Shown in pieces: positions 1-52,076 of a stretch of DNA of 64,000 nucleotides. Position numbers and translations under genes: made by a program. How positions within the stretch are numbered: position 1 is the stretch's first letter; every line of letters starts with the position of its first letter. This stretch comes from Methyloligella sp. GTDB taxonomy: Bacteria; Pseudomonadota; Alphaproteobacteria; Rhizobiales; HXMU1428-3. The stretch covers positions 1 through 64,000 of the forward strand of contig BQJJ01000009.1 in the NCBI GenBank assembly GCA_021604645.1, read 5' to 3'. A model generated the notes under the pieces. The model made no database searches. It saw only the letters and a list, made by a program, of their open reading frames with translations, and was not told the origin of the DNA.

Positions 1-20
1 AATGATAGAATTACCTACAC

Positions 21-190
21 GAAGAAGGAGTACTGTCCCTTCTTAAGGGCAGTAGGACATGACGAAGCACCAGCGTAGCCCGGCGCAAAAGATCAGCCCG
101 AACGGAGCGGAGCGAGTACGGATAAGCTGATCCCATAAAAACACCGCCCCTCGGAGGCCCACCGCTTCAGCGGTGGAATAGCCGTGAGAG
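21..190 (+). repeat. Structured dispersed repeat, family 1, copy A
   Basis: This is one of three related intergenic blocks of about 150-170 bp (others near 2963 and 10099). Seen directly: a start motif GAAGAAGGAG, a hairpin with a GGGCAG right arm (47-52), the phrase GGACATG, the stem GATCAGC (91-97) with GCTGATC (126-132), and a last hairpin CCACCGC/GCGGTGG (159-165/170-176). It ends in the shared phrase GAATAGCCGTGAGAG. The block stops four bases before the end of metY, which reads the other way. Function is unknown. The strand was chosen because copy C lies in sense upstream of recJ. Confidence 0.7.
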
Positions 191-194
191 AAAA

Positions 195-2929: not shown

Positions 2930-2962
2930 GTTTTCAAAGGAGATAGAATCCAACCCTACTTT

Positions 2963-3126
2963 ATGAAAAAGGAGCCCAGTCTTTTCGGCTGGGGGACATG
3001 GCAGCGAGAGCTGCCCGGCGCACAAGATCAGCCCGAACGGAGCGAAGCGAGTACGGATAAGCTGATCTAAAAGATGCGCCGCCCCACGGAGGCCCGAGCG
3101 TAGCGAGGAATAGCCGTGAGAGAGAG
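2963..3126 (+). repeat. Structured dispersed repeat, family 1, copy B
   Basis: It shares with copy A the GGAG start, GGACATG, CCCGGCGCA, the whole GATCAGC...GCTGATC hairpin (almost identical) and GAATAGCCGTGAGAGA. Its first hairpin has a different sequence but the same pairing (CCCAGTC/GGCTGGG, 2975-2981/2987-2993). Its second is GGCAGC/GCTGCC around a GAGA tetraloop. It lies in the 411-bp gap between rpsI and argC, which holds nothing else recognisable besides the terminator and the short hairpin. Confidence 0.7.
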
Positions 3127-9942: not shown

Positions 9943-10098
9943 AGTATCTAGAGACAATGAACACAGCAAAAGAGTTATAAACACTCTATTTCACTCCCCT
10001 ATTGCCCTCTCTATCGAATAAGCTATGCTCAGTAACGAGCCCTGAGGCACCTGTACTCATAACAATTTACAATGAGTTTAGTAGTGTGCTTACTACAT

Positions 10099-10249
10099 GA
10101 AGAAGGAGCATTGCCCGTTTGAGGGCAATGGGACATGGCGAAGCGCCAGCACAGCCCGACGCAAGCGCCGCACAATGCGGTTGCTAGTGGGCAACTTGAA
10201 GCACATCAAAAATGTAGGCATTCAGGCTTTGCCTGAATTTGCCGTGAGG
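10099..10249 (+). repeat. Structured dispersed repeat, family 1, copy C (recJ leader)
   Basis: It has the same frame as copies A and B: GAAGAAGGAG, a perfect first hairpin CATTGCCC/GGGCAATG (10109-10116/10123-10130), GGACATG, then TGGCG-AAG-CGCCA. A last hairpin ATTCAGGC/GCCTGAAT (10220-10227/10231-10238) is followed by GCCGTGAGG. The central GATCAGC hairpin of A and B is replaced by a family 2 hairpin. The final GAGG sits 7 bp before the recJ ATG and probably serves as its ribosome binding site, so this copy is most likely transcribed as the recJ 5' leader. Confidence 0.7.
10176..10203 (+). repeat. Short hairpin motif, family 2, copy 2 (inside the recJ leader)
   Basis: TGC outer stem with GCA, inner stem GTTGC/GCAAC, apical TAGTGG and 3' TTGAA. 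It is embedded in family 1 copy C. Confidence 0.6.
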
Positions 10250-10256
10250 TTAAAAA

Positions 10257-21385: not shown

Positions 21386-21416
21386 GCGACGGTTGCTTGT
21401 GGGCAACCTGAAGGAG
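21386..21416 (+). repeat. Short hairpin motif, family 2, copy 6
   Basis: Inner stem GTTGC/GCAAC, apical TTGTGG and CTGAA. The outer stem is weak. A right-hand half copy ending in the same CTGAAGGAGCACT phrase lies at 21361-21380. This copy ends ten bases before tRNA-Arg. Confidence 0.65.
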
Positions 21417-21425
21417 CACTTAAAA

Positions 21426-21502
21426 GGTCCCATAGCTCAGCTGGATAGAGCAACTGCCTTCTAAGCAGTAGGTCCGAGGTTCGAATCCTCGTGGGATCGC
21501 CA
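21426..21502 (+). tRNA. tRNA-Arg (TCT), integration target
   Basis: 77-nt cloverleaf with CCA. Acceptor GGTCCCA/TGGGATC (one G-T pair). Anticodon stem TGCCT-type with loop CTTCTAA, giving anticodon TCT. The gene is intact because the integrated element rebuilt its 3' part. The same 3' sequence recurs at 52014. Confidence 0.95.
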
Positions 21503-21508
21503 TTCTTT
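21446..21508 (+). repeat. Left attachment site (tRNA-Arg 3' part)
   Basis: 63 bp from TAGAGCAACTGCC within the tRNA to the six bases ATTCTT plus T after it, matched base for base at the right end. Confidence 0.93.
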
Positions 21509-50707: not shown

Positions 50708-51862
50708 CTAAACCATTCTATTTTTCATCGTATCTTTGATCAAGTGGCCTACTTCTTCGTTTAATTCCTTTACAGGATTATTGGTGATGTGAGCATATCT
50801 TTCCGTAGTCGTAGATTTCTTATGCCCTAGTAATTTTCCAATGTGCAGCAATGATGCTCCACTTTCAGCTGCTGTTGATGCAAAAGAATGCCGTAGATCG
50901 TGAATTCGAAAATTCTCTAAACGAGCTGTCTTTCTCACAATAACCCAGGGTTTTTGAATATTGACCATCGACCGGCAATAGACTTTGCCAACAATGACAT
51001 ATGGATTGTTTGTCTGTCTTGGAATTGATTGAAGAACTGCCATTGCTGGTTCATTGAGATTGATTGATTTCGCTCCGGTCTTAGAATCGGGTAAAAAGAT
51101 CACCTGCTTTTCATAGTTGATATACTCCCACTTTAAATTGAGGATCTCACCTTTTCGTGCACCAGTGAATATCAATAATCGTATGGCAGCAGCTGCATAA
51201 AGTGAGATCCTCCCCTTGGCCTCTTCTTCACTAATGGCACCACCCAGGCGACTAAGCTCCTCTTTTGATAAATAACGCTCAACTTTATTTTCTGTAAATC
51301 TTTTGATCCCCTTACAAGGGTTGCTATTGATTGGACGGTACCCATATTCTTCTGCCCAGCTCATTATCACTGAAATAACCATGAGAGTTACATTTGCATA
51401 GCGAGGTGTATGAGCATATTTGTGATGCAACTTCGTAATGTCGGGCCGAGAAATTTCGCTTATGATCATTTTTCCTAAAAAAGGTAAAATTTTCTTGTCA
51501 ATCACAGCGCTATATTCGCGACGGGTTGTTGGCTTAATATTTGGATAGTGTGATTGCTTAAAATGATCCACCAGCTCTTTGAGTGAGACTGCCGTTTCTT
51601 TTTCTTTCGCTGTCTGTATTGGATCAACTTTAAAAGCCATTGCTTGACGACGGGCTGTATCTGGCGTCCAGGGTAAACCATGACGGCCAATGGTGATGAA
51701 CTTCTGTTTACCCCGAATGCACGTCTTTAGAAAATAACTTGCACTCAGTCTTTGACGTCTCACGCCAAAGCCCTTGAGGGAGGTGTCATAGACAGTGTCA
51801 CCCGGTTGCAACCGTTCCACCACAGTTTTATTGATATGTGCACGAAAGCTCTTTTTATCCAT
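50708..51862 (-). CDS. Tyrosine-type integrase
   Basis: 384-residue phage-type recombinase of the element. The N-terminal arm-binding region (GDTVYDTSLKGFGVRR) is typical of P4-like integrases. The catalytic residues are Arg in FTGARKGEILNLKWE (about 233), the HxxR box HDLRHSFAS (about 319-327), His in LLGHKKSTTTERY and the nucleophile Tyr in ERYAHI (about 357). It lies about 150 bp from the right attachment site, as is usual for tRNA-targeting integrases. Confidence 0.95.
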   Translation of the reverse strand: MDKKSFRAHINKTVVERLQPGDTVYDTSLKGFGVRRQRLSASYFLKTCIRGKQKFITIGRHGLPWTPDTARRQAMAFKVDPIQTAKEKETAVSLKELVDHFKQSHYPNIKPTTRREYSAVIDKKILPFLGKMIISEISRPDITKLHHKYAHTPRYANVTLMVISVIMSWAEEYGYRPINSNPCKGIKRFTENKVERYLSKEELSRLGGAISEEEAKGRISLYAAAAIRLLIFTGARKGEILNLKWEYINYEKQVIFLPDSKTGAKSINLNEPAMAVLQSIPRQTNNPYVIVGKVYCRSMVNIQKPWVIVRKTARLENFRIHDLRHSFASTAAESGASLLHIGKLLGHKKSTTTERYAHITNNPVKELNEEVGHLIKDTMKNRMV

Positions 51863-52013: not shown

Positions 52014-52076
52014 TAGAGCAACTGCCTTCTAAGCAGTAGGTCCGAGGTTCGAATCCTCGTGGGATCGCCATTCTTT
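52014..52076 (+). repeat. Right attachment site (tRNA-Arg 3' copy)
   Basis: Identical to 21446-21508. It includes the anticodon arm, T-arm and CCA of tRNA-Arg but not its 5' half, so it is not a functional tRNA. Confidence 0.93.

Follow-up and report, generated by a model that had tools for sequence, protein, structure and literature searches.

The window, a stretch of 64,000 nucleotides from Methyloligella sp. (contig BQJJ01000009.1, positions 1 to 64,000 of the forward strand), carries three copies of a structured repeat. The first stands at the very beginning of the window, whereas the second and the third occupy spacers between genes which, judging from the translated proteins, we take to be rpsI and argC, and glpX and recJ, respectively. 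Contig C11 of the same genome opens with the same 141 bases as the window, which belongs to contig C9, so that the window begins where the assembly breaks within a copy of the repeat. The start codon of recJ lies four bases past the end of the third copy. The features are as follows.

20..192, + strand: copy 1 of the structured repeat (covariance model E 1.9e-28), with the 5' box CGAAGAAGGAG, hairpin 1, GGACATG, the core, P5/P4 plus hairpin 4, and GCCGTGAGAG
31..54, + strand: hairpin 1 of copy 1 (TACTGTCCC...GGGCAGTA)
91..132, + strand: nested palindromic module R3 (GATCAGC...GCTGATC) at the tip of hairpin 3 of copy 1
2962..3126, + strand: copy 2, in the rpsI/argC spacer (covariance model E 1.7e-22)
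3026..3067, + strand: nested module R3 within copy 2
10098..10252, + strand: copy 3, in the glpX/recJ spacer, the site named in the sequence-only reading (covariance model E 3.4e-22)
10109..10130, + strand: hairpin 1 of copy 3 (CATTGCCC/GGGCAATG)
10175..10203, + strand: nested module R2 (AATGCGGTTGCTAGTGGGCAACTTGAAGC) inserted into copy 3
10213..10249, + strand: GTAG loop strand, P4/hairpin 4 (ATTCAGGC/GCCTGAAT) and conserved GCCGTGAG end of copy 3
21386..21417, + strand: module R2, solitary, directly upstream of a tRNA at 21426

Elsewhere in the window, the 3' part of a tRNA is present as an exact 63-base duplication at 21446-21508 and 52014-52076, bracketing about 30.6 kb, and a phage-type integrase-like protein is encoded at 50708-51862 on the minus strand. 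The interval looks like an integrated island with attL and attR at a tRNA gene.

A structure under selection

Judging from 11 genomic copies, the element consists, in the 5' part, of the box CGAAGAAGGAG, hairpin 1 with its covarying arms, the word GGACATG and hairpin 2; in the middle, of a CGGCGC/GCGCCG stem that can bear the nested palindrome R3 at its tip; and, in the 3' part, of the 3-bp helix P5, the internal loop GNAG/CGUGA, and helix P4 with hairpin 4, followed by GCCGTGAGAG and a short A-rich end. Some 16 bases on the 5' side of the box are also weakly conserved. The element is about 120-140 bp long and forms four hairpins when folded as a single strand; upon a check for the terminal inverted repeats that a MITE of a DNA transposon would have, the two ends of one copy proved to be unlike each other. 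Helix P5 was missing from the first consensus; it was spotted by comparing families and then upheld within the genus, where it reads CTC/GAG 94 times, GTC/GAC 10 times and ATC/GAT 5 times. Order-wide, the GNAG/CGUGA loop is invariant and sits between covarying helices. The GNAG strand occurs as GGAG (35), GTAG (17), GCAG (10) and GAAG (8).

The sequence-only reading had claimed that the copies at 21, 2963 and 10099 form one family in which the arms of the hairpins change together, and that such compensatory change betrays a selected structure. Both claims are borne out, and every word and arm it listed was found in the sequence: the first-hairpin arms CATTGCCC/GGGCAATG come from the copy at 10098, CCCAGTC/GGCTGGG from the copy at 2962 and CTG-CCC/GGGCAG from the copy at 20, and the last-hairpin arms ATTCAGGC/GCCTGAAT and CCACCGC/GCGGTGG come from the copies at 10098 and 20, respectively. 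In the 11-copy alignment, 12 of the 26 pairs show compensated double changes, and the covariation score, 0.396 versus 0.162 in shuffles, was reached by none of 500 shuffles, with slid registers scoring 0.09 at most. For 73 distinct copies from the genome of the window, the score is 0.414 as against 0.124 +/- 0.007 in shuffles, in an alignment that, being fitted to the covariance model, leans towards the structure; a set of 15 sequences drawn from 10 genomes across the order scores 0.421 as against 0.154. Taken singly, the three window copies fold with z-scores of -1.8, -3.5 and -2.5. A covariance model, a check which the same reading had suggested, scores the three window copies, all of them among its training sequences, at E 1e-22 to 2e-28. 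The first such model was built on copies from which the nested modules R2 and R3 had been removed; the order-level core model was built from an alignment of unedited sequences. The element has a single-strand structure that is under selection. A coding role was rejected, since the frame that starts with the ATG of GGACATG is broken in some copies (by an early TAG in locus L011).

Copies across the genome and the order

The genome of the window (hereafter G000; G002 and the like denote other genomes of the order) holds at least 149 copies in a covariance model search, and seven genus mates hold from 20 to at least 88 copies each, so that 20 and at least 149 mark the extremes of copy number within the genus. 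Across the order, the core model (E 1e-4) finds matches in 45 of 199 genomes and none, at that threshold, in the other 154. A loose pattern scan of the genome contigs returned mostly chance hits, and L213 and L230 were the only strong ones among the loci that were checked. No similar element was found in the plasmid and phage collections searched, and spread by plasmid or phage was rejected on this ground.

Nearly all copies are intergenic. Their flanking genes run in the same direction in 23 cases, in the opposite direction in 22, convergently in 30 and divergently in 7, that is, unidirectional and convergent spacers are favoured and divergent ones rarely hold copies; the strand of a copy is independent of the direction of the neighbouring genes.

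Sites also differ between close relatives. The site of copy 2 is empty in G002 and occupied in G006, and the site of copy 3 holds a copy or a remnant in G002, G003, G005, G006 and G007. When syntenic sites of G000 and G002 are compared, many prove to be common and some gained or lost; since so many are common, this comparison does not demonstrate current mobility. In the few gained sites examined, neither a target-site duplication nor a clean insertion boundary was seen, the flanks of the empty sites being too altered to place a precise boundary. Orthologous copies can show a compensated change of arms (CTCATCCC/GGGATGAG versus CTCAGCCC/GGGCTGAG), which could alternatively stem from exchange between copies.

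Orientation of the copies and the replication fork

In this genus, single copies hold a fixed orientation with respect to the replication strand skew. Within the contigs of G000, 146 of 149 copies agree in strand, as compared to a random mean of 94 and a random maximum of 106, and after collapsing the clusters the agreement is 128 of 131 (random, 83); in the genus mate G002, all 44 copies among the matches listed share one strand within contigs. The direction of replication was deduced from the GC skew at third codon positions (GC3), rather than from mapped positions of the origin and the terminus; the strand with negative skew is, by the usual rule, the lagging strand. The forward strand of the element falls on the negative-skew strand in 92 of 101 copies in G000, in 31 of 34 in the genus mate G004 and at all 7 loci in G032, a member of another family. 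The nested module R3 is polar as well (16 to 0), and so is the second short repeat, module R2 (GTTGC..GTGGGCAAC; 24 to 1 when solitary), which is seen at window 21386-21417, at L104 7181-7240 and at L116 12175-12235, has the form NNNCGGTTGCNNGTGGGCAACYTGAAGNNN with covarying 3-bp outer arms, sometimes forms tandem arrays with a repeat unit of about 40 bp, and follows the replication skew. A literature search, mostly of open-access papers, turned up no palindromic repeat family for which such a replication polarity has been reported. As an aside, the contigs of G000 fall into two classes by GC3 skew, a strong one (about 0.4) and a weak one (about 0.1), which may represent two replicons or a history of inversions.

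The polarity bears on what the sequence-only reading had foreseen, namely that copies scattered over the genome in random places and on random strands would favour a selfish palindromic repeat. In place, the copies are indeed spread over the whole genome, mostly between genes; in strand, they are not random but follow the replication skew, and a plain, randomly oriented palindrome does not fit. Polarity is absent in G018, G066 and G096. In G018 and G066, where the strands are mixed, inverted doublets are common, those of G018 folding into long hairpins, whereas in the genus of the window they are rare, and its few wrong-way copies are mostly members of inverted pairs. In any genome, inverted neighbours face each other 5'-to-5' (26 of 26), an arrangement that would, by analogy, be REPIN-like and suit a hairpin formed by a single strand.

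As to which strand folds, G-T mispairs outnumber A-C mispairs on the forward strand in hairpin 1 (68:34) and in hairpin 3 (21:7). Together with the better folding of the forward strand by DNA parameters (see below), this excess provides modest evidence, the copies not being independent, that it is the forward strand which folds and is selected. A Y1 element, in contrast, should act on the opposite strand, the one exposed on the lagging-strand template.

We consider it probable that the element is a non-autonomous interspersed repeat of the BIME/REPIN/RIME/Bru-RS kind, the spread or survival of which is coupled to the replication fork. A regulatory RNA leaves the copy number, the gene context and the turnover of sites unaccounted for, and a randomly oriented palindrome the strands, whereas a repeat tied to the fork accounts for both. 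We infer that the copies would spread or survive through a step at the fork that employs the folded single strand, most likely in the form of HUH/Y1-like single-strand transposition, and the polarity might have been sharpened by the loss of copies that expose the better-folding strand on the lagging-strand template. The nearest model is the single-strand transposition of IS200/IS605 and of REP with RAYT (PMC6006769, PMC8266576, PMC3116915), yet none of the seven genus mates searched has a Y1_Tnp, some of them holding at least 88 copies. In G000 itself, two adjacent genes for Y1-type transposase-like proteins (L099 and L102; G000:C1:11499-15370) are absent from these seven genomes, and G018 has a protein that, presumably, resembles a RAYT; no repeat copy was found within about 1.5 kb on either side of the two loci in G000 or of the single Y1 locus in G018. 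A RAYT was rejected as the present mobiliser because Y1 transposases show no correlation with copy number. Similarly, RVT_1 is absent from G000, from five genus mates (G001, G002, G003, G005 and G007) and from G032, which led us to reject a reverse transcriptase as the present mobiliser and speaks against a retro-mobile element derived from a group II intron or a retron. One may tentatively envisage that an unknown factor recognises the folded single strand at the fork via the GNAG/CGUGA loop and thereby sets the orientation, in which case the element would represent a novel class of mobile repeats, coupled to the fork and dispensing with RAYT and reverse transcriptase, or else would serve the replisome as a polar signal.

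The main rival to the fork-coupled repeat is orientation-dependent loss, whereby insertion would proceed either way and the copies with the more stable hairpin strand on the lagging-strand template would be deleted. DNA folding parameters make the forward strand the more stable one in 75 of 101 copies of the element, and for the second short repeat the same holds in 51 of 51; by skew, this better-folding strand sits on the leading-strand template, as such loss would have it. The two wrong-way copies in syntenic stretches, both present in one species only, also fit. However, the stability gap between the strands of the element, 0.7 kcal/mol in the median, seems too small for 98% polarity, and the related elements in G018, G066 and G096 lack polarity altogether, so that we regard this explanation as rather unlikely. 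Orientation could also be kept by selection if the element were a functional polar signal of the chromosome, serving the replisome or the nucleoid much as KOPS, Chi or AIMS do. That polarity is nearly complete in the genus and in G032 agrees with this, and the invariant loop, with covarying helices on both sides, resembles a binding site, but a copy number that varies from 20 to at least 149 within one genus, the gain and loss of sites, the non-polar families and the 154 of 199 genomes with no match at the threshold used make it a quite improbable one. Finally, a regulatory role as a structured RNA, be it a leader, an attenuator or an sRNA, along the lines of the RNA element that the sequence-only reading had thought possible, appears most improbable of all: the RNA-like covariation, a modest G-U excess on one strand and the end of copy 3 just short of the recJ start codon would suit it, but there are at least 149 copies, with no favoured orientation or position relative to the genes and with presence differing between close relatives, and a search of Rfam gave no family at the gathering threshold (that reading, too, knew of no matching riboswitch), a leader RNA or riboswitch being ruled out by the gene context (23/22/30/7) together with the copy number.

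Small palindromic repeats are common in bacteria, and their spread is largely unexplained. The combination of near-complete polarity, a selected structure, sets of copies that differ between close species and related families with inverted doublets offers a natural test of fork-coupled insertion against orientation-dependent loss. It also calls for caution, as a covarying structure between genes may turn out to be a repeat rather than a riboswitch.

Comparison with known repeats

Below the Rfam cut-off, the family BASRCI27 matches hairpin 1 of one relative only, on the other strand; it was rejected as the family of the element, since this weak match rests on the palindrome of that single hairpin. 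The element resembles REP/BIME/REPIN sequences with their RAYT (TnpA-REP): these, too, are small intergenic palindromes in mosaic arrangement that are scarce between divergent genes, and the inverted doublets seen in some genomes of the order recall REPINs, which are tied to single-strand HUH transposition (PMC3116915, PMC3733652, PMC8266576). Like REPs, the element resides in intergenic regions, with a preference for unidirectional and convergent spacers. However, a REP is defined by a 5' GTAG or GTGG tetranucleotide beside the palindrome (PMC3686654), whereas the loop strand here is GNAG, with no fixed GT(A/G)G tag, and there is no cognate RAYT flanked by the repeat or tracking its copy number. 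Furthermore, the unit is 120-140 nt with four hairpins, as compared to 20-50 nt for a REP, and in this genus it occurs mostly as single copies locked to the replication skew.

IS200/IS605 elements use a folded single strand as the substrate, insert in a fork-coupled way and target the lagging-strand template (PMC6006769), and it is the folded single strand and the coupling to the fork, as proposed here, that the repeat would share with them. Unlike these elements, it contains no transposase gene, none is reliably present in the genome, and the G-T test favours the opposite strand.

Within the Hyphomicrobiales, RIME1 and RIME2 (Osteras, 1995) and Bru-RS1 and Bru-RS2 (Halling and Bricker, 1994) are reportedly palindromic intergenic repeats of 103-109 bp with a conserved structure and unknown function. 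To our knowledge, no replication polarity has been reported for them. By description rather than by sequence, the element is like these rhizobial and Brucella repeats in being palindromic, intergenic and structured; the size of Bru-RS is also given in PMC2267715 and PMC10800456. By description, again, the element can be likened to another alphaproteobacterial family in being intergenic, longer than 100 bp and built of inverted repeats. This is the family of CIR repeats, which Chen and Shapiro are said to have linked in 2003 to CcrM sites in Caulobacter and other alphaproteobacteria. The kind of the element is, then, one already known from BIME/REPIN, RIME and Bru-RS.
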